In this document: positions 30,364-48,752 of the stretch, in pieces
Position numbering within the stretch: the stretch's first letter is position 1
Layout of the letters: each line of letters begins with the position of its first letter
NCBI RefSeq assembly: GCF_000374165.1
Contig: NZ_KB893794.1
Span: forward strand, 62,001 to 126,000
Source of the DNA: Parafrankia elaeagni
GTDB lineage: Bacteria > Actinomycetota > Actinomycetes > Frankiales > Frankiaceae
Direction: 5' to 3'
DNA: 64,000 nt
Notes under the pieces: model-generated
Databases searched by the model: none
What the model saw: only the letters and a program-made list of their open reading frames with translations
Told to the model about the DNA's origin: nothing
Position numbers and translations under genes: made by a program

Positions 30364-30720
30364 ATGCGGGTCAGTCAGCGGTTCGGCAGGTTCGGTGAGG
30401 ACGTCGCGGCCCGTCATCTCAGCGCGGAGGGCGCGGAGATCCTCGTCCGGAACTGGCGCTGCCGTGAGGGCGAGATCGACATCGTCGCCCGCCAGGGCGA
30501 CCTTCTGCTTTTCTGCGAAGTGAAGGCGCGTGCCGGCACCGGATACGGCAGCGGCGCCGAGGCGGTCACCGGCCGCAAGGCGGCCCGGATCCGGCGGCTC
30601 GCCGTGCGTTGGCTGGCGGAGCATCCCCAGCCGCCCGCGATCGTGCGCTTCGACGTGCTCTCAGTCTGTCGGGAGCAGCAGGGCGCGGTGCGTGTGGATC
30701 ACCTGCGGGGAGCCTTCTGA
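30364..30720 (+). CDS. YraN/UPF0102 nuclease-fold protein
   Basis: A 118-residue UPF0102 protein with the PD-(D/E)XK-like core: GEDVAARHLSAEGAEILVRNWRCREGEIDIVARQGDLLLFCEVKAR. It has the E-x-D and ExK residues of the Holliday-junction-resolvase-like fold. ATG start at 30364. It is the first gene of the yraN-comM-dprA unit; its stop overlaps the comM start (ATGA). Confidence 0.92.
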   Translation: MRVSQRFGRFGEDVAARHLSAEGAEILVRNWRCREGEIDIVARQGDLLLFCEVKARAGTGYGSGAEAVTGRKAARIRRLAVRWLAEHPQPPAIVRFDVLSVCREQQGAVRVDHLRGAF

Positions 30721-31682
30721 TGGCGCTCGCCCGTTCACTGGCCGTCGCCGTGGTCGGTATCGAAGGGCACCTCGTCGAGGTGGAGGCCGATCTGGCGAAC
30801 GGCCTACCCGGACTGACACTGATCGGCCTGCCCGACGCGGCTCTGCACGAGGCGCGCGACCGGGTGCGCGCCGCGGTGGTGAACTCGCGCGAGCGCTGGC
30901 CGGATCGCAGGATCACCGTCGGCCTCTTCCCCGCGACATTGCCCAAGTCGGGCAGCGCGTTCGATCTCGCCATGGCCGCAGCGATCCTGGGCGCGGCCGG
31001 TGCCGTGCCGCGCGCGGCCCTCGTCGGCCGGATCCTGATCGGTGAACTCGCCCTCGACGGCAGGCTCCGCCCGGTGCGCGGTGTCCTGCCGGCCGTGCTC
31101 GCGGCGGTCGGCGCCGGGTTGGAGCGCATCGTCGTCCCGGCGTCGAACGCCCGGGAGGCCGCGCTGGTGCCAGGCGCGGTGATCGAGCCCATGCATGACC
31201 TCGCGGGCGTGCTCGACCTGCTACGCGGCCGCCCCCGGCTCGACCAGGTCCTGCCGGAGGCGGTGACCGCAGTCCGTCCTGATCCGCCCGAGCTGGATCT
31301 CTCGGACGTCGCGGGTCAGGCTCGGGGGCGCCTCGCGGCCGAGGTGGCCGCGGCCGGCGGCCATCACCTGTATCTGCAGGGCCCTCCCGGCACCGGCAAG
31401 ACGATGATCGCCGAACGACTGCCCGGCCTGCTGCCGGCTCTCGACACGGCGGCGGCGCTCGAGGTCACGGCCGTGCACTCGGTCGCAGGCGTCCTCCCAT
31501 TGGGCGAGCCGCTGGTGACCAGGCCTCCGTTCCGGAGCCCGCATCATTCCGCCACCCCGGCCGCGCTCGTCGGCTCGGGCTCCTCGGTCATCCGTCCAGG
31601 GCTTGCCAGCCAGGCACATCACGGTGTGCTTTTTCTTGACGAGTCGTGCAAACTAAAGTACACCCTATGGAACGCGAACTAA
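30720..31682 (+). pseudogene. comM: comM (yifB), 5' part, interrupted by the integrated element
   Basis: This is the N-terminal 308 codons of the Mg-chelatase-like AAA+ protein ComM, a branch-migration helicase that helps integrate transforming DNA. The N-terminal domain (VGIEGHLVEVEADLANGLPG) and Walker A (GPPGTGKT, from residue 221) are intact. At residues 307-308, the Asp-Glu of Walker B (VLFLDE), the element begins; 12 foreign codons (SCKLKYTLWNAN) follow before a stop. The rest of the gene is at 48138-48752. Joining the two at the repeated GACGAG restores one 512-codon frame. As it stands the ATPase should be inactive. Confidence 0.93.
31623..31664. other. attL: left junction with the integrase-proximal half of attP
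   Basis: The core GACGAG lies at 31638-31643. The comM side carries GGTGTGCT (31623-31630). The element side carries the inverted arm AGTACACC (31657-31664). Measured from a central GA dinucleotide (core positions 4-5), the arm is 14 bases away, matching the arm in attR. Confidence 0.75.
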
Positions 31683-33355
31683 GTGACGGAACGGTCGAAG
31701 GCATCGCCATCGACCCCGAAACAGGTGAAGAGCGCCCGTTCTTGCGTCGCCCAGGCAGGCGTACACGGGCCGTGGTGTATCCGCCCTTTAAGTCCTACGG
31801 CGTCGAGGTTCGGCCAGGAACGAAGCCGATCTGGCTTTATCTGCGGTTGTCGAAGTACCACCGGGATGGTGCGGATGCGATCGAGCGTCACCGCATCGAC
31901 CTCACGCGGCTACTGGCCATCCAGGGTGGATGGACGATCATGGGTGAGTACGTCGACAACGACTCGGCGAGCGCAGCCGCCGTGCGGACCCGGAAGGGGT
32001 GGCACGCGCTCAACGCGGATGTGGAAGCCGGGACGGTCACCGCCGTGGCGTTCTGGAAGCTGGACCGAACCAACCGGATCGCCACTCGCTGTATGGAGTG
32101 GATCGCACGCTGTCAGATCAAGGGTGTGATGTTGGTCTCACATCAGGATTCGGCTGATGAGTTGAACACCGCCACGGCCGGAGCCAAGCTTGTCGTTGGG
32201 ATCAAGGCGATCTTGGCCGAGGTTGAGACTGACGTGATGTCCGAGCGGCAGCTGAACGCCAAGCGCCATGCTGCGGAAGCTGGGTTCCATCACGGTGGTA
32301 CGCGCCCGTTTGGGTGGATGGCCGGTGCCCGTGAGACCGACGAGCTTGGACGGAGCGGGGTGCGCTTGGTGCCGCATCCGGTCGAGTTCGAGGCCCTGAA
32401 GGCCGCCGTACCGCTGGTGATCTCCGGCAAGAGTCTGCGGAGCGTGGCCCGGTACTGGAAAGATCAGTTCGGCATCACGACCGCGGACGGGTCGTTGATG
32501 GCCGAAGCCAACATCCGCCGCATGCTGACCTCCCCGCGCATGGTGGGCTACCGCATGCGCCAGGTCCCGGAACATCAGCGGGGCGTCAAGATCAATCTAT
32601 TCGATTATGTGGCCCGCGACGCCGAAGGAAACCCGGTCATCGCGCAGCAGCCGGTGTGCGATCTTGCGGTCTGGCGGCAGGTGGTCAGCAAGCTGGAGGC
32701 AGCCCGGAACTCTCAGACCCGCAGCCCGTGGGGGTCGTTCGAGTGGCTCCTGACCGGGCTGACCTACTGTGAGTGTGGTCATAGGCTCTATGGGCTCCAG
32801 AAGGCGTACAAGGGCGAGGGAGGCGTGATCCGCCGCCGCTACGCCTACCGCTGCACCGCCAACCGGCGGAAGGGCGCCGGGACATGTACCTATCGATCGG
32901 TGCTGCACGCCGAGCCAGGGGAGGCGCACGTGCAGGGGTGGCTGTTTGCCTACCTCACCGATGACCGTCTCGCCCAGGCACGCGCGAAGGAAGACGCCGC
33001 CCGACAGCTTGCGAGCCCGACGGGCAGCCTGATGCGCGATCTAGAAGCCGCCCGAGCCGAGCGTGAGATCCTGGTTGCGCAGCAGGGGAGCCCTGCCTAC
33101 CGTGGACCCAAGGTAGGGATCTTGCTCGGCATGATCGACAATGTGCAGGAGCGGATAGACAAGCTGGAGGCGCAGGCGAACGCTGCAACAGTGGACACGC
33201 TGCCCGTGACCTCCCACGCGGACCTCATCGCCCAGTGGCCCGACATGGACCTGAGCCAACGGCGCCAGCTACTCGCCCGCGTGATCGAGCGGATCGATGT
33301 CACTGCGGGTAAGGAGCCGCTCGCCGAAAGAGTGAAGATCGCTCCCCGTTTGTGA
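31667..33355 (+). CDS. Large serine recombinase (integrase of the element)
   Basis: A 562-residue serine integrase. After an unusual N-terminal extension of about 50 residues comes the resolvase domain, with the nucleophile Ser62 in LYLRLSK and the arginines in KLDRTNR (R134, R137), ending with SERQLNAKRHAAEAG. The recombinase domain follows (GTRPFGW ... SVARYWKDQFGI ... RRMLTSPRMVGYR). The zinc ribbon uses C368, C370, C396 and C407, and a coiled-coil segment comes next (LEAARAEREILVAQQ ... IDNVQERIDKLEAQ). ATG 31667 is preferred; an in-frame GTG at 31646 lies in attL. It presumably catalyses attP x attB integration into comM. Confidence 0.93.
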   Translation: MERELSDGTVEGIAIDPETGEERPFLRRPGRRTRAVVYPPFKSYGVEVRPGTKPIWLYLRLSKYHRDGADAIERHRIDLTRLLAIQGGWTIMGEYVDNDSASAAAVRTRKGWHALNADVEAGTVTAVAFWKLDRTNRIATRCMEWIARCQIKGVMLVSHQDSADELNTATAGAKLVVGIKAILAEVETDVMSERQLNAKRHAAEAGFHHGGTRPFGWMAGARETDELGRSGVRLVPHPVEFEALKAAVPLVISGKSLRSVARYWKDQFGITTADGSLMAEANIRRMLTSPRMVGYRMRQVPEHQRGVKINLFDYVARDAEGNPVIAQQPVCDLAVWRQVVSKLEAARNSQTRSPWGSFEWLLTGLTYCECGHRLYGLQKAYKGEGGVIRRRYAYRCTANRRKGAGTCTYRSVLHAEPGEAHVQGWLFAYLTDDRLAQARAKEDAARQLASPTGSLMRDLEAARAEREILVAQQGSPAYRGPKVGILLGMIDNVQERIDKLEAQANAATVDTLPVTSHADLIAQWPDMDLSQRRQLLARVIERIDVTAGKEPLAERVKIAPRL

Positions 33356-33643
33356 CGGTCTGGCCGAGGCGCGCCCGAAGCCATCAATGATGTGAATCAC
33401 ATCACGTGCTAGTTCGTCGGGTAGGGGACCCAGCGCCGCAGCCTGACGGCCCGCCCGCCAACCTGCCACGTAGTCAGCACGCTCACCGTCACCGATGAAA
33501 GCCGGCACCACCGGATGATCATCGTTGGCGGTCGGCGTGTCTGCCCACCCGCCCACCCACACCGTGGCCGCCTTCTGATCACCGCTGCCGGCCGGCATCG
33601 TGGCAGGGTCCTGCGAACCGGCATCGGAACCTTCGGTGCTCAT
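33269..33643 (-). CDS. Hypothetical protein, last gene of the rep-tra operon
   Basis: A 124-residue acidic protein not recognised. The middle section (FIGDGERADYVAGWRAGRQAAALGPLPDELARDVIHIIDGFGRA) looks like a small helical domain. The ATG at 33643 overlaps the stop of the rep gene by 4 bases, supporting it as a real, coupled gene. Its 3' end overlaps the integrase 3' end on the other strand by 87 bp. Confidence 0.6.
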   Translation of the reverse strand: MSTEGSDAGSQDPATMPAGSGDQKAATVWVGGWADTPTANDDHPVVPAFIGDGERADYVAGWRAGRQAAALGPLPDELARDVIHIIDGFGRASARPSQTGSDLHSFGERLLTRSDIDPLDHAGE

Positions 33644-35067
33644 AGATCAGCCCGCCAGGTGCCCCCACGGCTATCAGCCGGCCGTGACGCTGGCAGGCCG
33701 GGAGGGTCGGCGCCGTGTCCGTGGCTGAGATGTAGCCCGCGGCCCGCGTAGGTCCACGCACCGAGGATGATCGTCTCCGGGTCTCCGTCGAGCCTGCCGA
33801 AGGCGTCCACCGGGATTCGGCCCGCCATCGCGGCCCCGATCGTGCGGGACCACACCCGCCGCACCGTCCGCAACGCGGTGAACGTCGTCGAGTAGGCCCG
33901 CGATTTCGTGAGCCAGTGGCCACCGAACCCCATCTGGTGGGCCCAGCGCAGCAGCCGCGGGACATCACCGGAATCCCGGCCGAGTACCGCGTCCAACGCC
34001 GCGGTGAACGTCGCATCCTGGCCGAGCCGCCAGCAGGTCTCCACCAACCGCCGCACATGCGGAGCCAGGACCAGCCGGCCGAGTGCGGCCAACGACCGGA
34101 CCGGATGATCCAACGCCCCGCCGGCCGCCGCGGACTTGGTGATGTACTTCGCCAGGTAGTTGGACACTCGCCCGACGTCGGTGGGCCCGTCGAGCGCGAT
34201 GCGCCGGATGTCGACCTGGACACCCCAGCGCACCGCCCACCCGTCATCGGAAACGGTGCCCGTGTCGAGAGTGAGCGCGTCCGGATCGGGAGCAGGGACC
34301 GCCACCGACCCGACAACGTCCCGCAGAGCGTCCGCGACCAGATCACTATCCGCCCACGCGGGGGGAGCGGAACCGGGGCCGTCCGGCCCGTCGACCCGGA
34401 CCACCACATGCAGGTGCACCACGCCGCGTGCCTGCATCTCCGCGACCTTGACGAAGCTCAACCGCGCTGCACGGCGAAGCCTCGCCACGGTCAGCCCGGC
34501 CGCCGCCGCCACCGCGGATTCCGTCGCGTCGCGGGTGGCCTTCCACAGCCGGGGGACGAGCGCGTTCCACACCACGGTCCGGCCGTAGGCGTAGCAGTCC
34601 GGGCAGATCGGGGAACCCAGCCGGGAATCATCCTCGCGGTGCCGCTCATGACAGCCCGCCGGACGGCCGTGCGGACACAGCCCCCGCCGGGGGTGACACG
34701 CCCGCACCGGACCGGTTTTCCCGCCCTGTTGGCGCCGGGAGTGCACCGGGCCGAAGGACGGTGCGGTCAGCGTGACGAACCACGCCGGATGCCCGGTGAC
34801 CGTCTCCGGCACGCCCTTGCCGCCCGCCAAGCCCGCCAGGACGAGGCGCCGCGCGTCGCGCTTGTACACCGCGCTGCACGCCGGACAGGCGCTCTCCCGC
34901 CGGTTGTTGCACCGCACATGCAGCACCCCGCCGGGTAGATCCGCCCCCGACACGGCGCGTCGCACCTCACCCGTGTGCACATCAACGTGATCGACATGGC
35001 CGGACAGGCGGATCGGACGCGAGCAGCCCCCCGCGACCGGCCGATCGTCCGTAGACGCCTCACTCAT
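33640..35067 (-). CDS. Rolling-circle replication initiator, RepSA-like
   Basis: A 475-residue initiator like RepSA of the AICE pSAM2. It has motif 1 (WFVTLTAPSFG), the HUH motif (VVHLHVVV, H218 and H220), and catalytic tyrosines in SNYLAKYITKS (Y304, Y308). Several Cys/His pairs near the N terminus (CPAC, CHPRRGLCPHG, CPDC) suggest zinc binding. Start chosen at ATG 35067, with AGGGA upstream; an upstream in-frame ATG at 35133 is less likely. It would nick a double-strand origin after excision, so the circular form can replicate before transfer. Confidence 0.88.
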   Translation of the reverse strand: MSEASTDDRPVAGGCSRPIRLSGHVDHVDVHTGEVRRAVSGADLPGGVLHVRCNNRRESACPACSAVYKRDARRLVLAGLAGGKGVPETVTGHPAWFVTLTAPSFGPVHSRRQQGGKTGPVRACHPRRGLCPHGRPAGCHERHREDDSRLGSPICPDCYAYGRTVVWNALVPRLWKATRDATESAVAAAAGLTVARLRRAARLSFVKVAEMQARGVVHLHVVVRVDGPDGPGSAPPAWADSDLVADALRDVVGSVAVPAPDPDALTLDTGTVSDDGWAVRWGVQVDIRRIALDGPTDVGRVSNYLAKYITKSAAAGGALDHPVRSLAALGRLVLAPHVRRLVETCWRLGQDATFTAALDAVLGRDSGDVPRLLRWAHQMGFGGHWLTKSRAYSTTFTALRTVRRVWSRTIGAAMAGRIPVDAFGRLDGDPETIILGAWTYAGRGLHLSHGHGADPPGLPASRPADSRGGTWRADL

Positions 35068-35160
35068 GATCGTGTCCCTGTGTAAGGGCGCGCCGAGGAC
35101 CGGCCCGGGGTATACCGGGCCGGTTACGGCCACGCGAGAAGGAGGGAGAAGGAGAGCGGG

Positions 35161-36843
35161 CTAGTCCTGGTCGGTGTACCGGCGCACGAAGTCCTCCCAC
35201 GACTCAGCCGCAGGACTTCCGTCGTCGAAACCCGGAGGGGCAACCGGCGGCAGCTCCCGCGGAGGCGGAGGAGTCCACGCCCGCAGCGGCACCGTCGGGT
35301 CGTCGTCCTGGTAGGCGCTCACATCCGGCACCCAGCCGCCCGCCGGCGCCGGGGGTGGTGGTGCAGGGTCGACCGGGCGCCGCGCCGGCAGCGGCTGGAC
35401 CACCGGAGGGACCGGCCCGCCGAGCGAGGGCAGGCCCCGCGCAGGGGCAGCGCCGGGCAGGCTCTCCCAGGCTGCCGGAGCCCACGCCGGTGCCTGCCCG
35501 TACTGGGCCGCCATGGTGTGAATGTCCGGATCGTCCACGAACGCCGCGCGGACCCGGACCGGCGTCGGGTCGCCGTCCTCCAACACATAGCCGACGCCGG
35601 GCAGCGACATCGGGATGCGATCCGTCCACGCACCCCGGGTGTACGCATCGTCACCCAGCACCAGGGCGACTTCCGCCGCCCGCATGCGCAATGCCACTCT
35701 GACCTGGAACAGGTCCCGGAACGGAAGCACGTCCTTACGGGGGTCCTGCACCGCGCCGATGACGACGACGCCGACCGCGCGGCCCTGGGACAGCAGCAGC
35801 GACAGCGCCGCCGAGATCCGGGTCTTGGACTCCCGGTCCGTCGCGTACGCGGTCAACGCGGCGATCTCATCGACCATCACCACGATCAGCGGATGGCGCG
35901 GAGTCGGCTTGTGCAGCCGGGACCGGCCCCGCAGCCAGCCCGTACGGCGGTTCATCGCCGACACCGCGTCCTCCAACACGTCCGCGATCGCGCTGATGTC
36001 AGTGGCGAACCGGGTGAACAGCGGTTCCCCGAACCCCAGCTCCATCCCGCCCTTGGGATCACAGGCCCAGATCTCGACCAGCCCCGAGCGGATCGACGGT
36101 CCGAGCGCGCGGACGATCGACCACAGCACCGACCCCTTACCGGCCCCGCTGGCGCCCGCGACCAGGACATGGGAGCCACGCAGCCGCAGCAGCCACGGCC
36201 CGCCGTCCTCACGCCGGCCCACCACCACCGCATCCAGCCCGGACACATCCCCGGAACCGGGGTCGAGATGCTCGACCGTCACCATGTCCCCGAGCGCCTC
36301 ACGACTGACCAACGCAATATCCGCACGCCCCGCATGCGTCAGGTCCGGGATGATCCGCAGCCCCCGGCCCCCCAACGCCGCCGCCAGGCGCAGCGCGTTG
36401 CGCTGAAGATCCGTCACGTCCTGACCGGGCCGCAGCTGCACACGGAACCGCCGGCCCGATTCGGTGCGCCGTACCCGCCACACCCGCGGCGTCCGCATCC
36501 CCACTTCCAGACCGCAGGCCCGACAGGCAGCGGCCCACCGACGGCGCAGGCGACCCACCCCCAGCCACCCGAGCACCGCCCGGCGCCACCGGCCGACCAG
36601 CAGCACCAGCACCGCCGCCAGACCCAGCAGCACCATCGCCCCGTCACCGCCGACCAACCCGACGAGCTGTGCCCGCAGCCACACCAGCCCGACCAGCACC
36701 CCCAGCTCACGGCGCCACCCCAGCAGTAGCCGCCCGCCGTACTTCACCGCCAGTTCGAACACCGACGGCCGCAACCGCAACCGGAACGAGTCCGCGCGCA
36801 GCCGCCCCTGACGCACCTGCAACACCGGCATCACACCCACCAC
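35161..36843 (-). CDS. FtsK/SpoIIIE-family conjugal translocase (TraB/TraSA-like)
   Basis: A 560-residue DNA pump. Two hydrophobic segments near residues 46-86 (LGVLVGLVWL ... MVLLGLAAVLVLLVG) precede the motor domain. Walker A is GASGAGKGS (230-238) and Walker B is LIVVMVDEIAAL (D325, E326). The C-terminal 90 residues are Pro-rich and then acidic. This single-protein hexameric translocase moves double-stranded DNA between mycelial cells, using short repeats at a clt site. GTG start at 36843; an in-frame ATG at 36831 is an alternative. It lies upstream of the rep gene in the same operon. Confidence 0.88.
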   Translation of the reverse strand: MVGVMPVLQVRQGRLRADSFRLRLRPSVFELAVKYGGRLLLGWRRELGVLVGLVWLRAQLVGLVGGDGAMVLLGLAAVLVLLVGRWRRAVLGWLGVGRLRRRWAAACRACGLEVGMRTPRVWRVRRTESGRRFRVQLRPGQDVTDLQRNALRLAAALGGRGLRIIPDLTHAGRADIALVSREALGDMVTVEHLDPGSGDVSGLDAVVVGRREDGGPWLLRLRGSHVLVAGASGAGKGSVLWSIVRALGPSIRSGLVEIWACDPKGGMELGFGEPLFTRFATDISAIADVLEDAVSAMNRRTGWLRGRSRLHKPTPRHPLIVVMVDEIAALTAYATDRESKTRISAALSLLLSQGRAVGVVVIGAVQDPRKDVLPFRDLFQVRVALRMRAAEVALVLGDDAYTRGAWTDRIPMSLPGVGYVLEDGDPTPVRVRAAFVDDPDIHTMAAQYGQAPAWAPAAWESLPGAAPARGLPSLGGPVPPVVQPLPARRPVDPAPPPPAPAGGWVPDVSAYQDDDPTVPLRAWTPPPPRELPPVAPPGFDDGSPAAESWEDFVRRYTDQD

Positions 36844-37453: not shown

Positions 37454-37870
37454 CTACGCCGGGCGCGAGCCGTTGGCCGTGGCCACCAGGTGGCGGACTT
37501 CGTCGGCCAGGGCCAGGACCAGCGCGTCACGGCGCGGAGGCTTCGCCAACGCCCAGTGGGACCGGTGCAGCAGCCGCGCCGCGTGACGCCGCCGCACGCC
37601 CAGCGGCTGACCGCGCATCCCGTCCGTCAGCCCGAACAGGACCGCCGCCGCCGGACCGTCCGGACGGTGCAGACGCTCCGAAGCCATACGCAGCAGCCCT
37701 TCCGCCGCGACCGCCCGCACCAGCGGTGCCAGCCCGCCGGCCGGGACCAGCAGCCGCACCACCTCCGGCGCATGGCCCATCAGGCCGTCCGCGTGGGCAC
37801 CGCGCCGTAGGGCCCCGTCCAACGCCACCCACAGGTCCGCCACCTCTGGCACCGACCCCGGGGCGGTCAT
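37454..37870 (-). CDS. Small helical protein, element paralogue family member 1
   Basis: A 138-residue protein of unknown function. Shared features with the proteins at 38899, 39482 and 40497 are an N-terminal GHAPEVVRLL helix, VAAEGLLRMA, a middle LFGLTDG, and a C-terminal LGVRRRHAARLLHRSHWALAKPPRRDALVLALADEV. The last looks like the RRxxAAxxLGVS-type HTH seen at the end of many actinobacterial proteins. ATG 37870 overlaps the upstream membrane-protein gene (ATGA). Confidence 0.65.
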   Translation of the reverse strand: MTAPGSVPEVADLWVALDGALRRGAHADGLMGHAPEVVRLLVPAGGLAPLVRAVAAEGLLRMASERLHRPDGPAAAVLFGLTDGMRGQPLGVRRRHAARLLHRSHWALAKPPRRDALVLALADEVRHLVATANGSRPA

Positions 37871-38049
37871 CGGCTACCCCGCGCGACCATCGCCGCCGCC
37901 GCCACCGTCACGCCACCGATAACCGCGTACGGCGCCGCCTCAAACACCCACTCGATTGCCGCCAGCACCAGGTACAGCGCGGACACCGCGGCGCAGATCT
38001 TCGCGAAGACCCACCACAACGGCGACCGCCGATACACATACCGGCCCAT
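37867..38049 (-). CDS. Small membrane protein (Spd-like), copy 1
   Basis: A 60-residue protein with two predicted membrane segments (WWVFAKICAAVSALYLVLAAIEWVF and APYAVIGGVTVAAAAMVA). It is clearly paralogous to the 52-residue protein at 40065. Small membrane proteins of this size next to tra are typical spread (Spd) proteins of mycelial conjugation. The start may be ATG 38049 or the GTG one codon earlier. It overlaps the gene at 37454 by 4 bases. Confidence 0.65.
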   Translation of the reverse strand: MGRYVYRRSPLWWVFAKICAAVSALYLVLAAIEWVFEAAPYAVIGGVTVAAAAMVARGSR

Positions 38050-38191
38050 CACATACCGCCTTCCGGGAAGGATTCACGCAGCCCGGATCGGGCTACCGGC
38101 GGGCTGTCCCGCCGTGCACAAAGCATTGCCCGAAACGCCGGCAGAAAGCTGCACACGAGACCGGCCACTTTCCGGAATCTTTTCGGAACCA

Positions 38192-38223
38192 AAACGGCAC
38201 CGGAAACGGCACGGGAAACGGCA
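38192..38223 (+). repeat. Three direct repeats with 12-bp period
   Basis: AAACGGCA occurs at 38192, 38204 and 38216, each separated by 4 bp. The size and spacing (8-bp motif plus 4-bp gap) resemble TraB recognition sequences in clt loci of streptomycete plasmids. The function here is inferred. Confidence 0.6.
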
Positions 38224-38504
38224 GCCCAGTGCCACCAGCCCGGCAGCCACCCGGCACGACCCAGGGCACCATCCCGGCATCACCCCAGCTCCCACACCCC
38301 GCCGCAGCACCCCGCCGAGCGACCTCACCCCGCACCCCCCAGGGGGCCCCACTCGTCCCGGAGACCACGGCCCATCCCCGCGGCACGCACCCGAGGCAGC
38401 CAGCCGGGGACAGCCCCCGCACGGCCACCCACCGTCCCGAGGCCGGAGCTACCCCCACTTAAGTGCCAGTCCGAGGAAGAAAATCCGACGCGGGCAGCCG
38501 GACG

Positions 38505-38524
38505 CCGGTGGACACCGGTGGACG
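38505..38524 (+). repeat. Tandem CCGGTGGAC repeat
   Basis: Two copies of a 10-bp unit, CCGGTGGACA and CCGGTGGACG. GGTGGAC recurs on the other strand at 37358-37364 upstream of the gene at 36916, and the related TGGACGC occurs twice at 10-bp spacing at 38747 and 38757. It may be an operator for an element-encoded regulator. Confidence 0.5.
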
Positions 38525-38803
38525 TCGGCAGACAACCACGGACAGACCGTCACACAGCCGAAACACGACGACAGCCGCCACTAGCCTTCACCTGCCGCCG
38601 ATAGCCCGCATCCTGGCCTTATGACGCTGATCAACCACCGACACCCGCAGACGTACCCCGCCGGGACAGGCCGCCCGCGCACCCACCGACGCCACCCCGA
38701 GCGGACCAGCACGCAGCCACCGGCAGGCGATCACACAGGGCGTTGTTGGACGCTAGTGGACGCAAACTCCGCAAACGGTGACGGAATGTGTCAGGATGCT
38801 CGC

Positions 38804-38835
38804 TGTTGCTCTGAGGCCCCGCGTACAGAGCAACA
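38804..38835. other. Hairpin upstream of the 38899 gene
   Basis: Perfect 10-bp arms (TGTTGCTCTG and complement) enclose a 12-base loop, about 65 bp before the start of the next gene. It could be a terminator of leftward or rightward transcription, or a leader element. Confidence 0.5.
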
Positions 38836-38898
38836 CACCAGAAGGGAGGCACGGCGGGGGAAAGCGGGGGCCGACAGACGGCCCCAGCCGGACCGCAC

Positions 38899-39297
38899 AT
38901 GACCAGTACACCCAAGATCGACGTCCCGACCCTGACCAGGCAACTCCGCACGGCGATGCGACACGGCACCCGCGCCGCCAGCCTCGCCAAGCACGCACCA
39001 CACCTGGTCGATCTGCTCACCCACCGCACCACCGGCAGCCCCGACGAACGGGCCATCGCCGCCGAGCAGATCATCCGGGACGCGACCACGCCCCTGGGCG
39101 ACCCCATCGGCCCGGCCATGCGGATCATGCTCGGTCTCGAACCCGGAACCTGGCACGTCCGGATCGAAACCCGCCGCGACCGCGCCGCCGCCCTTCTCGG
39201 CATCACCCCGGGAGCCTTCCGCCGACCCCACCACGAAGCCACCTATTTGCGCGACATCGCTTGGGAGATCTGGCAGCACCAGCGCAACGCCGCATGA
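38899..39297 (+). CDS. Small helical protein, element paralogue family member 3
   Basis: A 132-residue protein aligning with the 37454 and 39482 products along its length: KHAPHLVDLL, AIAAEQIIRDA, LGLEPGTW, then TRRDRAAALLGITPGAFRRPHHEATYLRDIAWEI. The C-terminal pattern is a candidate HTH. It is on the opposite strand from members 1 and 2. No good ribosome site is visible before ATG 38899; the nearest GGAGG is about 50 bases upstream. Confidence 0.6.
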   Translation: MTSTPKIDVPTLTRQLRTAMRHGTRAASLAKHAPHLVDLLTHRTTGSPDERAIAAEQIIRDATTPLGDPIGPAMRIMLGLEPGTWHVRIETRRDRAAALLGITPGAFRRPHHEATYLRDIAWEIWQHQRNAA

Positions 39298-39481
39298 CCC
39301 TGCAACACCGGCCCCGACCACCACCGGAAAACCACGGCCCCGGAGCACCCGCACCAGCGGACACGCCCCGGGGCCTTTTCCATTCCCGAACCCCACCACA
39401 GCCCCCAACCCCCGCAGGAAAGGAAAACCGGGTACGGGAATTACCCCGTACCCGGCCAGCTCCCAGGATTCCCCGCCGGAA

Positions 39482-39868
39482 CTAACGCGCCGTATACGCG
39501 GCCACCCGGCATACCTCCACCGCCAGCGCCAGCAACAGCCCCTCACGGCGAGCCGGTTTCTCCAACGCCCAATGCGTCACCCCCAGCGCAGCAGCCGCCC
39601 GCCGACGTCGCACCCCCATTGGCGCGTTCCCCAACCCGTCCGCCAGGTCCAGCAGCGCCGCGACCGCAGCGCCCTCCCGAGGCTCCATCCCCTCCACCGC
39701 CAGCCGCAGCAACCCTTCCGCGGCGACGGCACGCACGACCAGGTCACAGACCCCGTCCGGCGGAAACAGCACATCCACCAGCCCCGGAGCATGCACCGTC
39801 AGCGCCGACGCCCGAGCCCCCCACCGGACCGCGCCATCCAGCTCCACCCACACATCCGCCGCATCCAT
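39482..39868 (-). CDS. Small helical protein, element paralogue family member 2
   Basis: A 128-residue protein and the closest relative of the 37454 product: VHAPGLVDVLF, VVRAVAAEGLLRLAVEGM, LLDLADGLGNAPMGVRRRRAAAALGVTHWALEKPARREGLLLALAVEV. The start at ATG 39868 overlaps the stop of the preceding membrane-protein gene (TGATG). Function unknown. A C-terminal HTH-like motif is inferred from the RRRAAAALGVTHWALEK pattern. Confidence 0.65.
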   Translation of the reverse strand: MDAADVWVELDGAVRWGARASALTVHAPGLVDVLFPPDGVCDLVVRAVAAEGLLRLAVEGMEPREGAAVAALLDLADGLGNAPMGVRRRRAAAALGVTHWALEKPARREGLLLALAVEVCRVAAYTAR

Positions 39869-40068
39869 CACCACGACACCCCCACCCGACCAGCCGGACC
39901 CGACGCCGGCACCGTCACCGACACCGAACCCCCCGACCCCGAACCCGGATCCAGCACCGTGTACAGAAACACCACCGAAAACGTGGCCACCCCGACACCC
40001 ACATTCAACGCCAGCAGCGCCACCCAAAACAGCACCTTCTGACGACGAGATATCACCTCCCGATTCAC
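39868..40068 (-). CDS. Small single-span membrane protein
   Basis: A 66-residue protein with one hydrophobic segment (VLFWVALLALNVGVGVATFSVVFLYTVL) after a basic N terminus, and a Gly/Ser/Val-rich exterior tail. The GTG start overlaps the preceding gene by 4 bases (GTGA) and the stop overlaps the next (TGATG), so it is the middle of a coupled three-gene set. It has no counterpart in the 37.4-38.0 kb module. Confidence 0.6.
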   Translation of the reverse strand: MNREVISRRQKVLFWVALLALNVGVGVATFSVVFLYTVLDPGSGSGGSVSVTVPASGPAGRVGVSW

Positions 40069-40223
40069 TGGGCCACCAGCCCAGCCACCGCCAGCACCGC
40101 CACGCCAGCCACCAGATACGGCGCAGTCTCAAACGCCCACTCCACCCCCACCAGCACCAGGGACAACCCGCAGACCGCCGCGCAGATCCGCCAGAACACC
40201 CACCACCACGACCGCCGAGACAT
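40065..40223 (-). CDS. Small membrane protein (Spd-like), copy 2
   Basis: A 52-residue protein too short for standard gene calling. It reads MSRRSWWWVFWRICAAVCGL, then a second hydrophobic segment TAPYLVAGVAVLAVAGLVAQ. It matches the 60-residue protein at 37867 nearly position by position (WWVF, ICAAV, LVL, EW, FE-APY, V-G-LVA). The ATG at 40223 follows AAAGGGG. It leads the coupled set 40223 to 39482. Confidence 0.65.
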   Translation of the reverse strand: MSRRSWWWVFWRICAAVCGLSLVLVGVEWAFETAPYLVAGVAVLAVAGLVAQ

Positions 40224-40415
40224 CCGAACCAGCCCCTTTCAGGAAACGACGCGGAGCCGATCAGCCCCACACCGCACATCCTGAAAGAGGACAGCGCGAC
40301 AAAAACAGTACCGCCAGCACGTACTTTCCTCGCCGAAAGCCCGACCACACCCCGACGCCCACACCAGGTGTAACCCGGACCACACGCCCGATACCGACCA
40401 GACCCGGACCAACCC

Positions 40416-40444
40416 TTGACACGATCAGTAGCCGGACGATTCCA
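40416..40444 (+). promoter_or_regulatory. Possible promoter for the 40497 gene
   Basis: A perfect -35 TTGACA (40416-40421) lies 17 bp before ATTCCA, a weak -10, about 55 bp upstream of the GTG start. Confidence 0.3.
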
Positions 40445-40496
40445 TGCCGAAACAAGGACAAAGAGACGACGGAACCCGGACAGGACCCCGACACCC

Positions 40497-41069
40497 GTGA
40501 CCACCACCGAGGAACCCCCCACCGCCAGCCAGCCCGGCACCATCGAGGAGCTAGCCGATCTCCTCCGCCGCCTCTACCGCAGCGGCATCCGCCACCCCGC
40601 CACCCTGCTTCACAGCCCTTACGCGGCGGACACCATCCGCCTGATCACCGGCCACACCCCACCAGCCGACGACCACGCACGCCTGCACCGCCTCACCCAG
40701 GCCCACACCCGCATCCGCGCCGCCGTCGACGCCATCGGCGAGCCGGAAACCGGCATGCTCCGGCACCTGCTCGACCTCCACGACGACCGGACCCGCGTCC
40801 GCGGCGGCATCGAGAAACGCCGCGAGCAAGCAGCCCGCATCTACAGCACCGACCCCACCAAACCCATCAGCGGCGCCAGCTTCCAACGCCGACCCGAACG
40901 ACGCATCACCGTCCTGCTAGCCGCAGAGATCATCAGTCAGACCGGGCCACAGCCACACCCGGCCATGCCCACCGCAACCTTCGACCCGCAAGGCACCCAC
41001 CAAGCCGCCGCACCCGCACCCAGGACCCCACCCCCACCGGCCACAGCGTTCCGCCCGCGTCGTCCCTAG
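40497..41069 (+). CDS. Small helical protein, element paralogue family member 4 (extended)
   Basis: A 190-residue protein with the same layout as members 1-3 but more divergent: LHSPYAADTIRLI, IGEPETGMLRHLLDLHDDRTRVRGGIEKRREQAARIY ... GASFQRRPERRITVLLAAEI. A Pro-rich tail follows. Start placed at GTG 40497 (MTTTEEPPTASQ). The C-terminal RREQAA ... FQRRPE pattern fits the actinobacterial small HTH signature. It is on the + strand like member 3. Confidence 0.6.
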   Translation: MTTTEEPPTASQPGTIEELADLLRRLYRSGIRHPATLLHSPYAADTIRLITGHTPPADDHARLHRLTQAHTRIRAAVDAIGEPETGMLRHLLDLHDDRTRVRGGIEKRREQAARIYSTDPTKPISGASFQRRPERRITVLLAAEIISQTGPQPHPAMPTATFDPQGTHQAAAPAPRTPPPPATAFRPRRP

Positions 41070-41156: not shown

Positions 41157-41777
41157 CTAAGGGTGGATTACGATGCCACGTTGCGCATATGTGTTCTCCA
41201 ATTGGGTTTGGGTTAGATGGACGTATTGCTGGGAGCTACCTGGTAGTCCGGACGGATTGTGGATCACGAGCGTGTCGGTCGTCACGCCCACGACGAGCAC
41301 CAGATGACCGCCGCGGTGCGGGGGGCGCCGGTCCGGCCATCGGACCCAAGGGTGGACGGAGATCATCGCGAGGCAGCCCGCGCCGATCGCGTCCACCACT
41401 TGGTCGATGGGAAGAGTCGGCAGCACTTCCGCCTTGACGGCGAAGCGGTCCCCTACCCACGTCGCGAACGGTGCATAGATCAGGCCGTCGAGCCCGCCGT
41501 CCGCCCTGCGTACGTACCCCCCGTGAGTCGTGCATTCCTCAGCGAGCGCCACCAGCCCCGGAGCAACGATGTTGCGTGCGCCAAGCGCCATGCTCAGGCA
41601 CGCCATGCCGCAGAGCCGCCGAGCCCACCAAGCGTATTCCTCGGGGCATGCTGCCCCCGTTACAGCCCAGCGAGGATCAGCGGCCAACGGCAGCGGGTCA
41701 TCCTCCCGCACGAACTCAGCCGCCAGTTCCGGCGAGGCGAACTGACTGACATACGGCACCTGATGGACGATAGACAC
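41157..41777 (-). CDS. C39-like papain-fold cysteine peptidase
   Basis: A 206-residue protein with the Peptidase_C39_2 layout: an N-terminal VPYVSQF with the oxyanion Gln (Q12), nucleophile C56 in RRLCGMACLSM, His158 in RGGHLVLVVGV, and Asn174 in VIHNPSG. The residues between Q12 and C56 are a longer loop than usual. No signal peptide or transporter domain is seen, so it acts in the cytosol or on a partner. It follows the Ddl-like gene by 49 bp on the same strand, which suggests a shared pathway. Confidence 0.75.
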   Translation of the reverse strand: MSIVHQVPYVSQFASPELAAEFVREDDPLPLAADPRWAVTGAACPEEYAWWARRLCGMACLSMALGARNIVAPGLVALAEECTTHGGYVRRADGGLDGLIYAPFATWVGDRFAVKAEVLPTLPIDQVVDAIGAGCLAMISVHPWVRWPDRRPPHRGGHLVLVVGVTTDTLVIHNPSGLPGSSQQYVHLTQTQLENTYAQRGIVIHP

Positions 41778-41826
41778 GGATCAGGAGTATGCCTGCCCCG
41801 CCGAGACCCGGCCGGGTGACACCCTG

Positions 41827-42774
41827 CTAGGGGACGTAGGACGGCTTATTGAACGCGGTTCCCATGAGCGCGATGATGAGATCGTCGTAGTTGAGACCAG
41901 CAGCGTTCGCCATCGTAGCCAGATTCCCGGACGGCGACAGGCCCGGCCCCGTATTGATCTCCAGCACGGAAATACGGCCACCCGGGGTGATCCGGAAGTC
42001 GACACGGCTCACACCCCACGCACCCACAGCCTTATGCACCCGAAGAGCGATATCCCGCACCTCGGCAGCCTGCTCCGTGGAGACACGGGCCGGGCAGAAG
42101 TACCGCCGCTGGTCCGGATCGTGCTTCGCGACATAGTCGAAAAAGTCGCGGTCCGTCTCCATCTCCAGAAGCGGAAAGCAGCGAGCTACACTGTCCGACT
42201 CCAGGATACCGGCCGTGACATCGATACCGGGCGTAAACTCCTCAACGATGAAAGTCTGATACTCAACCGACCCCGCCTGTAACACCGTAACCAGTTCCTC
42301 GACAGTGTGAGCAACCGTCGTCCCCAGACTTCCACCACCCGAAGCGGGTTTCAAAACCACCGGAAGTCGGAAGCGATCGGCAGCCTCTTCGGCGATCGCC
42401 ATCGGGTCACCCTGCGGAGACAACTGCATGAAGCGCGGGGTGTCAATCCCAACGCCACTCAGAATGTGCTTGAACGCAGGCTTGAACATGCCGACAGCAC
42501 TCGCGAGCACACCCGACCCGGTGTAGGGAACACCCGCCATCTCCAGCGCTCCCTGAACCTTCCCGTCCTCACCAGGCGGACCGTGCAGCGCCATCAGTGC
42601 CACGTCGATCCTCAGATCGTCCGGCATCTCCACCAAGTCGATCAGGTCGGCCCGTATCCCCTGCCTCCGCAGCGCCCCCGCCGCCGCCTGTCCCGACACG
42701 AGCGAACCCGCACGCTCAGGACTCTTGCCGCCGCATAGGACACCAACGGTAATCCTGTCCGACAGGACACTCAT
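41827..42774 (-). CDS. Ddl-type ATP-grasp ligase with altered substrate residues
   Basis: A 315-residue relative of D-Ala-D-Ala ligase. Catalytic and Mg residues are kept: E20 in GGKSPERAGS, HGPPGEDGKVQG, K142, R257 in SRVDF, E272 and N274 in LEINTGPG. The triad that positions the second D-Ala in Ddl (Ser150/Glu187/Tyr216, E. coli DdlB) reads Gly148, Asp185 and His218 instead (GGGSLG, GIDVTA, VAKHDPD). It is therefore probably a dipeptide or depsipeptide ligase with a different second substrate. The chromosomal ddl at 4045 is the housekeeping enzyme. ATG start at 42774. Confidence 0.85.
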   Translation of the reverse strand: MSVLSDRITVGVLCGGKSPERAGSLVSGQAAAGALRRQGIRADLIDLVEMPDDLRIDVALMALHGPPGEDGKVQGALEMAGVPYTGSGVLASAVGMFKPAFKHILSGVGIDTPRFMQLSPQGDPMAIAEEAADRFRLPVVLKPASGGGSLGTTVAHTVEELVTVLQAGSVEYQTFIVEEFTPGIDVTAGILESDSVARCFPLLEMETDRDFFDYVAKHDPDQRRYFCPARVSTEQAAEVRDIALRVHKAVGAWGVSRVDFRITPGGRISVLEINTGPGLSPSGNLATMANAAGLNYDDLIIALMGTAFNKPSYVP

Positions 42775-43696: not shown

Positions 43697-43993
43697 TCAC
43701 CCCTTACCTCCCAAATCCGTCAGATCGTCGAACTCCCCTCCGCGGACACCAGCGAGGAACGCCCGCCACTCGACCGCCGAGAACAGCAAGGACGGGCCAT
43801 CCGGCCAGCCGGCCTGACGCAGCGCCACCCCCACGCCGACAGCCGCAGTGGCGAAGCCCAACGGCGCGATCTCCACCGCCGCGTCACCCGAGCCCGATGC
43901 CCGCCGCCACGCCATCCGCTCCCGACCGAACGCCGGCAGCTCGAAATCCAGACTCGCCGCCCACCGGCGCATCCATGCATCCCGCACCCACAC
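43697..43993 (-). CDS. DUF397 domain protein
   Basis: A 98-residue protein (shorter if a later Met is used). The DUF397 pattern is clear: WRRASGSGDAAVEIAPLGFATAAVGVGVALRQAGWPDGPSLLFSAVEWRAFLAGVRGGEFD. DUF397 proteins are commonly encoded next to HTH regulators in actinobacteria and often act with them. Here the TPR regulator is divergent at 44396. The N-terminal start is uncertain: GTG 43993, ATG 43972 or ATG 43915. Confidence 0.75.
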   Translation of the reverse strand: MWVRDAWMRRWAASLDFELPAFGRERMAWRRASGSGDAAVEIAPLGFATAAVGVGVALRQAGWPDGPSLLFSAVEWRAFLAGVRGGEFDDLTDLGGKG

Positions 43994-44395
43994 ACCCCCC
44001 GATCAGCCGGACGGAACGAAGAAACGGCGGCCCCAGGCAGGACAGGACAAATGTGTGTGGTCCGACGCCACACCCAGGGCCGCCAAAGGATGACCGCAAA
44101 CACCAGCCATCGGAGCTGGGTGCGCAGTCCTCCCCAAACGGTTCCAACCGGGGGGAGGGCCCAAGCCCGGCCAGAACCGACACCAGTCACTATGCGTGCA
44201 GGACCGTGCCACCACAGTGACGTGCTGTAGACGTCGTGGTGCCATCGCGGTGACATCGCCATGTCCCATCCGGTGCCTTCTTGCTGCCACGTCGTGACAT
44301 TGCTGGCCACGAACCCGACGATGAGACGTGGGAGACGCGGCACTCGCAAGCCGGTGCCTCCTCAGATGCTGTGTAGCCATCCGCTAAGGAGCACC
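43994..44395. other. Divergent control region of the cargo block
   Basis: About 400 bp between the leftward DUF397 gene and the rightward regulator. It should hold both promoters. I see no clear repeat or operator beyond short CATCG-rich stretches. Confidence 0.4.
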
Positions 44396-45781
44396 ATGAC
44401 AACAGCCGCAGCGAGTGGCCATCCCCGGACCTTGCTCGCCCAGCTGCTCCGCGACCGTCGATGGAGCATCGACGACTTTCGGCGACGCTACGAGGTAGCC
44501 TCCCGCGCCGTGCCCGACGGCCGTCACCTAGCCGTTAGCGACCGCCAGGCGAAAAGATGGATCACGGGAGCGGTGGCCGGGAAACCGTATCCCGCCGCTT
44601 GTCTCGTCCTTGAGCGTCTTTTCGGGTACCCGGTCGAAGACCTGCTAAGACCCCCACCCATACCTGAAGTGTCACACGTACCTAACCGGGATATCGCATC
44701 CACCGGGCCATACGCGCATACACCCCTCGTACCCGCGGCCGTAACGAAGTCACGCACTGCTGGGCCGGAAATACCGGCCACACTTGATACCGAAGCTGAA
44801 GACGCCTTTCGGTTCCTCGTTCGCACTGAGAACACCCCGGCACCGGAAATTCTCGCCTTGCTATGGAATCAAGTTGAACGACTCGCGAACGCATACGGCG
44901 ATCACCTGACCCTGCTAGTTAGCGATCTGATCATCGCGCGAAAGGCCATCTTTCGACTCCTCGACGGACCGACCGATCCGGCTGATGCTCGGGATCTCTA
45001 CCTTCTCGGCGGTTTGGTCTGCGCCATGCTGGTCCACGCCTCGCGCGATCTAGGCAATACCGAACGTGTCCTTATGTACGAGCGCGCCGCGCTAGTCTGC
45101 GCTGAACGCGCCGGACACCCCGGTCTCCATGTAATCATTGGAACCGAACAAGCTGCCACTGCATATTGGATGAACGAATACGCTGATTCCATCCGCCATA
45201 CCGAACGCGCCCAACGACATGCCGACCACGTCCGAGGCTCCATCGCCGTACTTCCCTCGGTTCAACAGGCCCGCGCCTATGCCGCGATCGGCGATGTCGA
45301 GCAAGCGCGCGGTGCACTGGCGACAAGCCGCCGGATGCGCGATCAGGTCTGTCCTGATGACCTCGACGCAATCGGCGGCATCATGCGTCTGAGTCTCCCC
45401 GAGCAGCTCGGCATCATCGCCGGCACCGCTGCATGGTTGCCCGAGGCCGCCGCTGCCGAGCAAGCCGCGCTGGACGCCATATCCGCCTATGGCGACGCCG
45501 CCTACGCCGACCGCTCTCACAACTCTCAAGCCATCGCCCATGCCGATCTGGCGCTCGCTCGGATCCGGAGGCATGATCTTGACGGAGCTCAGCAAGCCCT
45601 AGAAGCGATCCTTAGTATTCCTGCCCAGCACAGGGTTCTCCCGATCCGTATGAGAGCGCACCGCATCATCTCCGTGATCGACGCGGACCCGGCTTGCCGG
45701 CGCTCTCCCCAAGCCCGCGATATCACGGCCACCATCCAGACATACGTCTCCGAGGGTGCCCTACTGGCCTTGCCCGACTGA
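44396..45781 (+). CDS. HTH/TPR transcriptional regulator
   Basis: A 461-residue protein. The N-terminal 90 residues (LLAQLLRDRRWSIDDFRRRYEVAS ... VSDRQAKRWITGAVAGKPYPAACLVLERLFGYPVEDLL) are an atypical Cro/XRE-like domain seen in streptomycete regulators. The remainder is helical TPR-like repeats (LGNTERVLMYERAALVCAERAGH ... RAYAAIGDVEQARGALATSR). ATG 44396 follows AAGGAG at ideal spacing. Codon use is clearly less G/C-biased than in the chromosome. It probably controls the adjacent cargo genes, perhaps with the DUF397 protein. Confidence 0.8.
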   Translation: MTTAAASGHPRTLLAQLLRDRRWSIDDFRRRYEVASRAVPDGRHLAVSDRQAKRWITGAVAGKPYPAACLVLERLFGYPVEDLLRPPPIPEVSHVPNRDIASTGPYAHTPLVPAAVTKSRTAGPEIPATLDTEAEDAFRFLVRTENTPAPEILALLWNQVERLANAYGDHLTLLVSDLIIARKAIFRLLDGPTDPADARDLYLLGGLVCAMLVHASRDLGNTERVLMYERAALVCAERAGHPGLHVIIGTEQAATAYWMNEYADSIRHTERAQRHADHVRGSIAVLPSVQQARAYAAIGDVEQARGALATSRRMRDQVCPDDLDAIGGIMRLSLPEQLGIIAGTAAWLPEAAAAEQAALDAISAYGDAAYADRSHNSQAIAHADLALARIRRHDLDGAQQALEAILSIPAQHRVLPIRMRAHRIISVIDADPACRRSPQARDITATIQTYVSEGALLALPD

Positions 45782-46323: not shown

Positions 46324-46331
46324 CCCAACGG

Positions 46332-47086: not shown

Positions 47087-47219
47087 AGGTTCCGCTCCTG
47101 CTCTCTCAGGTGTGGGACCAGGCCCGGAGCCGGTGTTTGCCGCACCGTCCGGGCCGTTTTGTTCTGTAGATCAATTATCGCAACTTTGCTGTACGACGTG
47201 AACGCAGCCGATCAACGGC

Positions 47220-47254
47220 AACGGCCGACATCCGAAGATCGGATGCCGGCCGTT
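47220..47254. terminator. Stem-loop after the 47272 gene
   Basis: A 16-bp stem with one mismatch (AACGGCCG-N-CATCCGA) and a 3-base turn, 17 bp past the stop of the leftward gene at 47272. Confidence 0.6.
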
Positions 47255-47271
47255 GAGCTGGACCGTCGAAG

Positions 47272-47730
47272 CTACGTGCGCACCGGGCGATGGTCGCGGA
47301 CCATGTCCGCCAGTGCCACGACGGACCGAGGGTCAAGCCCGAGGATCTCCGAGGACAGCCGCTCACCGGTTGGACCGCCCGGAATCCTCGTCAGCAGCAC
47401 ATGAAGAGCTTCCTGAAAGGAATTCCACGCGGGCATTGTCCACGTACCGTCAGGAGGCACCCACCCGTCACCGCCACCAGACGCCGGTAGCCGGTCACCC
47501 AGCGTCCGGAAGGTCAACAACACATCCGTGTGACCCGGAGCAACCGGGCGATGGTCGGTGTAGATGGCCCGCGGCAGGGTCGCCGTGGCGTCGACGAGAT
47601 CCCGCAGGAGCGCGCCGGCCGCGACCGTCACCTCATAGACCCCGTGGGCGCGAGACGTCACGGCAACGAACCGGTGCCCGTCGAACGGGTTGCGCCACCT
47701 ACCCGGACCGGACGGCGGAATACTAGACAT
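47272..47730 (-). CDS. Hypothetical element protein
   Basis: A 152-residue protein not recognised. The first half suggests beta strands (GHRFVAVTSRAHGVYEVTVAAGALLRDLV ... TDVLLTFRTLGDRL) and the second half helices (SFQEALHVLLTRI ... VVALADMVRDHR). ATG 47730. It is divergent from the excisionase candidate, with a 127-bp shared promoter region containing a palindrome. Confidence 0.55.
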   Translation of the reverse strand: MSSIPPSGPGRWRNPFDGHRFVAVTSRAHGVYEVTVAAGALLRDLVDATATLPRAIYTDHRPVAPGHTDVLLTFRTLGDRLPASGGGDGWVPPDGTWTMPAWNSFQEALHVLLTRIPGGPTGERLSSEILGLDPRSVVALADMVRDHRPVRT

Positions 47731-47812
47731 GGGTCACCCCTGTTCGCGCAGGTCGTGATCAAGGTTCCGGGGTTGGAGGTGCAAGCTCCGCCCTGGAACC
47801 GCTACGACTCTC

Positions 47813-47837
47813 ACTATAGGACGGTGCGTCCCATAGT
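47813..47837. promoter_or_regulatory. Operator-like palindrome upstream of the excisionase candidate
   Basis: Arms ACTATAGGACG and CGTCCCATAGT (one mismatch) flank a 3-base centre. The left arm includes TATAGG, which could serve as the -10 of the rightward gene starting at 47858. A repressor bound here would block it. Confidence 0.5.
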
Positions 47838-47857
47838 TCCGGTGGACGGGGAGATGT

Positions 47858-48082
47858 GTGGCGGACGAAGACCCGTTGATCGGCTATCGGGAGATGGCGG
47901 AACGGGCCGGCATCAAGCCGGGCACGCTACGTAGCTACCGCAATAAAGGTTTGCTCCCCGAGCCGGATGACCTGTCGGTGCCCGACCGGCCTAGGTGGAA
48001 GGCGTCGACGGTCGACGCATGGCTAGCTGACCGTCCTGGTAGGGGGAGCAGGACCGATCTGCACCGTGAGCCGCCGACGTAG
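47858..48082 (+). CDS. Small HTH protein, excisionase (Xis/RDF) candidate
   Basis: A 74-residue MerR/Xis-type winged HTH: IGYREMAERAGIKPGTLRSYRNKGLLPEPDD ... RPRWKASTVDAWLADRPGRG. Proteins of this size and fold directly beside an att site are commonly excisionases or recombination directionality factors. It ends 50 bp from the attR core. GTG 47858. It could equally be a repressor of the element; the sequence cannot decide. Confidence 0.75.
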   Translation: MADEDPLIGYREMAERAGIKPGTLRSYRNKGLLPEPDDLSVPDRPRWKASTVDAWLADRPGRGSRTDLHREPPT

Positions 48083-48112
48083 TTGTTCGAACTAAGATGT
48101 GACCCACGTCAC

Positions 48113-48137
48113 GGTGTACTAGGGTTCTGGCGACGAG
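48113..48137. other. attR: right junction with the other half of attP
   Basis: The core GACGAG lies at 48132-48137, followed by comM sequence. The element arm GGTGTACT (48113-48120) mirrors AGTACACC in attL. Both arms lie 14 bases from the predicted central GA dinucleotide. Confidence 0.75.
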
Positions 48138-48752
48138 GCCCCGGAGTTCGGACGCAGTGCACTGGATGCGCTGCGCCAGCCGCTGGAGAGCGGCCAGGTC
48201 GAGATCGCCCGGGCCCGGGCGACGACCCGTTTCCCGGCCCGGTTCCTGCTGGTCCTTGCCGCGAACCCGTGCCCGTGCTCTCGGGCGCGTGGTCCTCGCG
48301 ATCTCCGCTGCGACTGCCCGAGCACCGTGCGTCGTCGTTATCTCGCCCGGTTGTCAGGGCCGCTCCTGGACCGGATCGACATCCAGATCGCGCTGACCTC
48401 ACCCAGCCGCGCCGAGCTCAGGGCCGACCGGGATTTGGCGGGCTCCTCGGCCGCCGCCGCCCAACGGGTCCGCCAGGCGCGGTGTGTGATGGAACGTCGC
48501 TTCGCCGGAACTCCATGGCGTCGCAACGCGGAGGTCCCCGGCCCCTCGCTACGGCGTCGCTGGCCGCTGCGTTCGGAGGCCACCCGCCTGGCAGACCGGG
48601 CCTTCGAGCGGGGCCTGCTCACCACCCGGGGGCTGGACCGGGTGTTCCGTGTCGCCTGGACCATCGCGGATCTCAACGGCCAGGAGCGTCCTGGCCCCGA
48701 AGAGGTGGGGCTGGCGCTCGACCTCCGTCTGCCCGGAGGCCGGCATGAGTGA
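48138..48752 (+). pseudogene. comM: comM (yifB), 3' part, cut off from its start
   Basis: The C-terminal 204 residues of ComM: APEFGRSALDALRQPLESGQVEIARARATTRFPARFLLVLAANPCPC, then sensor and lid parts (RRRYLARLSGPLLDRIDIQI). Walker B Asp-Glu codons are duplicated just upstream in attR, but an in-frame TAG at 48120-48122 and the lack of a start codon leave the fragment untranslated, or started internally (for example GTG 48327). It overlaps dprA by 8 bases, so loss of comM translation may lower dprA expression. Confidence 0.93.

Follow-up and report, generated by a model that had tools for sequence, protein, structure and literature searches.

The 64,000-nt stretch of the Parafrankia elaeagni genome analysed here (assembly GCF_000374165.1, contig NZ_KB893794.1, positions 62,001 to 126,000; hereafter the window) contains the comM (yifB) gene in two parts, separated by an insert with its own integrase. 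The comM frame starts with an ATG at position 30720 of the window and runs to a GACGAG hexamer that encodes Asp307 and Glu308 of the Walker B motif, the last residues being VLFLDE. It resumes at a second GACGAG, offset by 16,494 bp, and no identity extends past the hexamer on either side. Removal of the interval in silico restored a single open comM frame of 512 codons. The dprA gene lies downstream of comM, and the source assembly has a listed contamination of 5.5%. The features that define the insertion are the following.

30720..31643, plus strand: comM (yifB) 5′ fragment, codons 1-308; the frame enters the element and stops at 31680-31682
31638..31643, plus strand: GACGAG at attL; proposed crossover GA at 31641-31642 (Glu308 codon positions 1-2)
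31644..31664, plus strand: attP right arm, with AGTACACC at 31657-31664, the inverted counterpart of 48113-48120
31667..33355, plus strand: large serine integrase (int); Resolvase PF00239, Recombinase PF07508 and zinc ribbon PF13408, all above cut-offs
33640..35133, minus strand: RepSA-type replication initiator; PF20199, E 1.5e-140
35161..36843, minus strand: FtsK/SpoIIIE-family transfer ATPase; PF01580 above cut-off, E 1.2e-8
48113..48131, plus strand: attP left arm, with GGTGTACT at 48113-48120
48132..48137, plus strand: GACGAG at attR; proposed crossover GA at 48135-48136
48132..48752, plus strand: comM 3′ fragment, codons 307-512 plus stop

A first-pass annotation of the window had claimed that a serine-integrase element splits comM at the Walker B codons, with GACGAG at both junctions 16,494 bp apart and a rebuilt gene of 512 codons. 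The junctions, the integrase domains and the profile coverage bear this out: against TIGR00368 the comM N part covers positions 5-308 and the C part positions 309-486, with Pfam matches as well. A comparison with related strains lacking the element, which that annotation had suggested, revealed contiguous comM at the locus in all six genus relatives (G001 and five others). In G001, the closest relative, the comM flanks are 95.6% and 94.8% identical and abut with an overlap of exactly 6 bp, corresponding to an empty site.

The int product comprises the catalytic, Recombinase and zinc ribbon domains of a large serine integrase. Together with the att sites, the RepSA-type initiator and the FtsK/SpoIIIE-type transfer protein, it makes up the set expected of an actinomycete integrative and conjugative element (AICE). 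The initiator scored 325.7 against the NCBIfam RepSA equivalog model, below the cut-off of 700, and is therefore described as a relative of the pSAM2 protein; the match of the transfer ATPase to the plasmid TraB equivalog model was likewise far under its cut-off. None of the 17 element ORFs scanned was VirB4- or VirD4-like, as an integrative and conjugative element (ICE) of the type IV secretion system (T4SS) type would require. We are confident that this is an AICE whose own large serine integrase inserted it at an attB within comM, and it can probably transfer between cells. The int start codon at 31667 lies 24 bp past the hexamer. Since int adjoins the comM fusion frame and its start overlaps the tail of that frame, the integrated gene would plausibly be expressed with the comM operon. 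At the far end of the element, 47600-48250 contained no sigma-70-like promoter.

Position of the crossover

Serine integrases require identity between attP and attB at the central 2 bp. Joining the halves of attR and attL that belong to the element gave an attP with inverted arms, GGTGTACT...AGTACACC, and the best dyad centre fell on GA, hexamer positions 4-5, in each of the ten attPs scored (the element and nine relatives), which had all been joined with the first codon taken from attL. The attR sites vary within the hexamer. Among 12 sequences compared, from 13 C-side loci, the first codon differed from GAC in five (GCTGAG three times, GCTGAA and GATGAG) and the final base was A in two, while GA at positions 4-5 was constant in all 12. 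The attL rows read GACGAG in 13 of 14 cases and GATGAG in one, and the hexamer of 36 intact comM genes reads GAYGAR, with bases 1, 2, 4 and 5 invariant.

Judged from sequence, the element thus has a 2-bp central identity inside a symmetric attP. With the dyad centred on GA and other bases of the hexamer variable among relatives, this dinucleotide is the most likely crossover; it forms the first two bases of the codon for the catalytic Glu308 of Walker B, and would be the point of cleavage. The hexamer noted in the first-pass annotation stands as an observation, with GA as the likely crossover inside it.

Integrases and other elements at comM in other genomes

We scanned 84,980 species genomes for the integrase, with a search that detects close relatives only, and obtained 18 loci. 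The comM N part ended at the same residue directly before int in 13 of these; at L040 a short comM remnant (GVLFLDE) lay upstream of int, and L043 was interrupted by a contig end. Considered genome by genome, comM was split in 15 of the 18 int carriers and full length in three. The split N parts end at model positions 304-309, apart from two that extend to 337 via a read-through stop, and the C parts start at 294-302. Both parts were found on one contig in eight genomes, 34-74 kb apart. From this distribution, the choice of site goes with the integrase clade. The earlier expectation that the site would be usable in many hosts is supported by this clade and by other integrase lineages (see below). 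Another Frankiaceae genome has a relic of a past element (L024, G009:C1:2302261-2302542), which shares 89% identity with residues 1-93 of the AICE integrase and had no comM match in the surrounding 19 kb fetched.

We sampled the backbones of three carriers of related integrases (34-47 kb, 10 proteins), where the VirB4 matches remained under the equivalog cut-offs. L042 encodes VirD4-like, VirB4-like and SCO6880-family proteins, L034 VirD4-like and VirB4-like proteins, and L039 VirB4-like and SCO6880-family proteins. By their make-up, the three look like T4SS-type ICEs rather than AICEs, and the integrase would therefore keep one address on two dissimilar transfer backbones.

To place these integrases among others, we used a tree of 49 sequences, in which the AICE integrase clade comprises 20 rows with support of 100/100. 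Further users of the Walker B codons fall into other groups: one contains phages SV1, Eklok and Maja, another contains Bxb1, and the fourth group is mixed. Compared with representatives of these groups, the AICE integrase shows 20-26% identity; from group to group the range is 18-28%. The reference phages have targets such as groEL1 for Bxb1; the rows labelled 'rest' include L040 and L044, both inside the AICE integrase clade, and phages with no target assigned. A single clade of all Walker B users was rejected (p-AU 6e-58) on 38 of the 49 rows, with 11 closely related rows of the AICE integrase clade left out and G176 relabelled. With the same relabelling, the starred branches require at least eight changes of target label. 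Several integrase lineages are shown by this tree to use the same comM codons.

Breaks at these codons were also sought with the TIGR00368 profile in 394 Actinomycetia genomes, 60 of which, with weak or multiple matches, were re-examined. At least 12 of the 394 have comM broken at the Walker B codons, the AICE-bearing genome (G000) included. Both comM parts lie on one contig in G000, G052, G096, G153, G160 (228 kb apart), G177, G216, G223 and G356, and on two contigs in G298 and G367, while G190 has the N part only. The count is a lower bound, with G049, G054, G055, G092, G128, G137 and G166 (one weak match each), G319 and some genomes with a strong match plus extra ones falling outside the re-examination. 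Ten of the 12 contain a serine integrase; for G367 the N-side contig alone was fetched, which ends at the break and has no serine integrase on it. Elements that break comM at the same codons, for which the first-pass annotation had recommended a search, therefore do exist and belong to several integrase lineages.

The ends of these inserts differ. G096 has a longer repeat around FLDEAPE at both ends, GAGGCG is common to both ends in G223, and the ends in G153 and G052 share GAC or slightly more, so that the crossover there would fall on the Asp codon, since little beyond GAC is shared. The G052 insert (L175/L176, G052:C1:6171000-6195900) splits comM after the Asp codon, is bounded by a GAC repeat and the inverted ends TTTAGCGACC/GGTCGCTAAA, and is perhaps a transposon-like element on the same codons. 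Other inserts occupy further positions in the gene. In G177 (L182/L183, G177:C24) comM is hit at both the Walker A and the Walker B codons, with a different serine integrase in each insert. The break in G176 (L179/L180, G176:C1) is at a nearby but different site; its ends, CTCACACTCGGG/CCGAGTGTGAG, are symmetric, and a serine integrase lies next to the N part. G158 and G263 (L189, L190) have comM split near residues 77-84, at an FDLA motif, next to serine integrases that are 49% identical to each other; this is a third comM site.

Viral contigs provided a further set of loci. As the scan with the N half of comM was dominated by a common ATPase motif, we relied on the C half and on alignments of short stretches. 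At 9 of 27 C-side loci, comM_C starts at the Walker B codons behind other DNA, and an integrase adjoins each of the nine (in two pieces in L129). Upstream of the site comM was uninterrupted at 13 of the 27, and five were undecided (L117, L121, L125, L135, L136). In two Evtepia phage records a comM-like N part stops within GVxFL, and no serine integrase was found in the 3.5 kb on either side of it. A search for the AICE integrase itself in phages and plasmids at E 1e-40 returned none, and viral contigs reach 25% identity only. Several candidate breaks were discarded: double comM matches in many Streptomyces-like genomes were mostly a single frame with a linker near model positions 165-189 and are uncounted, L107 proved intact, and in the gut records L194-L197 the comM matches run through residues 300-310.

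Choice of the Walker B codons

A broader reading, to which we give slightly under even probability, is that codons of the comM catalytic motifs serve several serine-integrase lineages as a general landing site. The obligatory crossover would lie on bases locked by the protein, which would make attB independent of the host, and the integrase would keep its address across AICE and T4SS-type ICE backbones. In the main reading, the integrase would exchange strands at GA, codon positions that stay fixed as long as the Glu residue is kept. As the stretch is well conserved, the gene is widespread and these hosts evidently survive its loss, a target would then be present in many hosts. In accordance with this, the best-conserved 40-nt segment of comM (rank 1 of 1,496) lies over AHHGVLFLDEAPE, at most 15 nt from the hexamer, and the second-best lies over Walker A. 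DNA conservation and dispensability would thus drive the choice of site. As a working backup for comM, the second comM-like gene of the genome (G000:C54) was rejected, since its Walker A and B motifs are degenerate and it is not counted as a working ATPase. Such paralogues occur in three genomes of the genus, this one and two relatives (L026, G000:C54:78317-79249, at 7730-9250; L014; L015); they have degenerate Walker A/B motifs, for example with LTD, LAD or LND for LDE, lack the integration site and are apparent pseudo-ATPases.

Several observations weigh against the main reading. Three members of the integrase clade lie at other sites: in L030 (Brevibacterium) int follows a left flank ending in GCCGAG and an intact comM is found elsewhere; in L038 it follows a GCTGAG flank, although comM of that genome is split; and L044 (Pseudofrankia), the closest integrase relative (67%), lies outside a comM that is intact. 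G052 is broken at these codons, but its 22-kb insert yielded no serine integrase, and comM of G176 is broken seven codons upstream of them. The segment centred exactly on the hexamer has rank 86 and the best one near residues 77-84 rank 220, in a biased sample of 36 intact comM genes (the 30 best-scoring loci and six genus relatives). The tree fits new gains or old retention with losses alike. Finally, no recombination directionality factor (RDF) was identified, and we infer excision and transfer of the element from its sequence.

The site could instead, as the first-pass annotation suggested, have been chosen because inactivation of comM shields the element from removal or competition by homologous DNA brought in by transformation. 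We consider this possible but less likely. Mobile genetic elements (MGEs) occupy comM in several species, for which a curing hypothesis was put forward (Croucher 2016, PMC4774983), in Acinetobacter baumannii a link between comM inactivation and poor transformability has been described (Mazzamurro 2024), and competence genes are enriched among serine-integrase targets (Durrant 2022, PMC10083194); the idea itself is therefore already in print (Croucher 2016, Mazzamurro 2024). In the genus, a ComEC-type gene is present in all seven genomes and dprA adjoins comM. However, the tests described in the available parts of these papers concern other bacteria, and DNA conservation alone already points near the same codons. 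A benefit from comM loss is not needed to account for the site, because conserved DNA in a dispensable gene suffices.

Remaining gene content, known systems and significance

The rest of the element consists of small ORFs, cargo and regulators.

33269..33643, minus strand: small ORF between int and repSA, an RDF candidate by position only
37454..37870, minus strand: small paralogue s1 of an unnamed family, from sequence comparison
38899..39297, plus strand: small paralogue s2, from sequence comparison
39482..39874, minus strand: small paralogue s3, the 3′ part of a longer mechanical ORF
40416..41069, plus strand: s4, a doubtful distant paralogue, from sequence comparison
41157..41777, minus strand: C39-like peptidase family protein (cargo), profile match
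41827..42774, minus strand: D-Ala-D-Ala-ligase-like ATP-grasp protein (cargo), profile match
43697..43993, minus strand: DUF397 protein, profile match
44261..45781, plus strand: NsdA-family TPR-like regulator, profile match

Part of the ORF at 33269-33643 is weakly conserved beside int in Pseudofrankia (L044). The paralogues s1, s2 and s3 (with s4, spanning 37454-41069) are mutually related at 34-54% identity, s4 being a doubtful fourth member, and had no Pfam or NCBIfam match. The C39-like peptidase and the adjoining ATP-grasp protein (41157-42774) are possibly a peptide-modifying pair. PADLOC returned no match for 10 element proteins.

This content bears on the question of whether the AICE has decayed into an immobile remnant. 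A clear family match is lacking for most of the ORFs scanned at 42.9-43.7 and 46.3-47.7 kb, and repSA is in pieces in the Pseudofrankia relative. Yet the frames of int, repSA and the FtsK-type gene are open over their full length, the arm symmetry is kept at both att sites, and there are relatives without the element, one at 95% DNA identity, so we regard decay as improbable. A reversible switch, in which conditional excision restores comM and the insert acts as a gene-intervening element, not simply as a parasite, is more improbable still: the junctions would permit precise restoration and the Frankia AICE Faln2929, with a serine recombinase, excises in culture (Ghinet 2011, PMC3218068), but no RDF, signal or excised form was identified here and the site is common to elements with different backbones.

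Most AICEs use tyrosine integrases and mainly target tRNA genes (Ghinet 2011, PMC3218068). The closest parallels to the comM AICE are Faln2929 and the pSAM2-type AICEs, which likewise have a RepSA-type initiator and a transfer gene; Faln2929 also shares the serine recombinase, a protein-coding target and the lack of an identified RDF, but it disrupts a putative endonuclease gene, and comM is unmentioned in the available part of that paper (PMC3218068). The magnesium chelatase/ATP-dependent protease gene is the target of 12.4% of predicted site-specific integrases (Durrant 2022, PMC10083194). This is the same gene family, although in the part available the site is not tied to Walker B and the core is undefined. 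Prophage WO sr1WO is likewise a serine-recombinase element with magnesium chelatase gene fragments on both flanks, but it is a phage of a Wolbachia host, compared here at the level of the gene (PMC9203015). MGEs in comM of Aggregatibacter, Acinetobacter, Mannheimia, Francisella and Pseudomonas (Croucher 2016, PMC4774983), together with the AbaR islands (PMC11472951), also disrupt comM, with similar-integrase elements at an orthologous location; they are other elements, partly Tn7-like, and again compared at the level of the gene.

The preference of serine integrases for this gene, competence-gene targeting, phage WO and serine-recombinase AICEs are already published. No statement placing the site on the Walker B codon or on a GA core was found in the literature searched, supplements lying outside its scope. 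As far as these searches show, this AICE and the placement of its crossover on GA of the catalytic Glu codon are new, as are the use of these codons by several integrase lineages and of one address by two transfer backbones.

A known integration hotspot gene is hereby narrowed to an exact codon and dinucleotide. Because several lineages hit the same gene at several motifs, the question of whether conserved DNA or the disabling of competence selects the site becomes testable. The landing site also allows one to predict the genomes that a given integrase can enter, and provides predicted integrase/att pairs across Actinomycetota.

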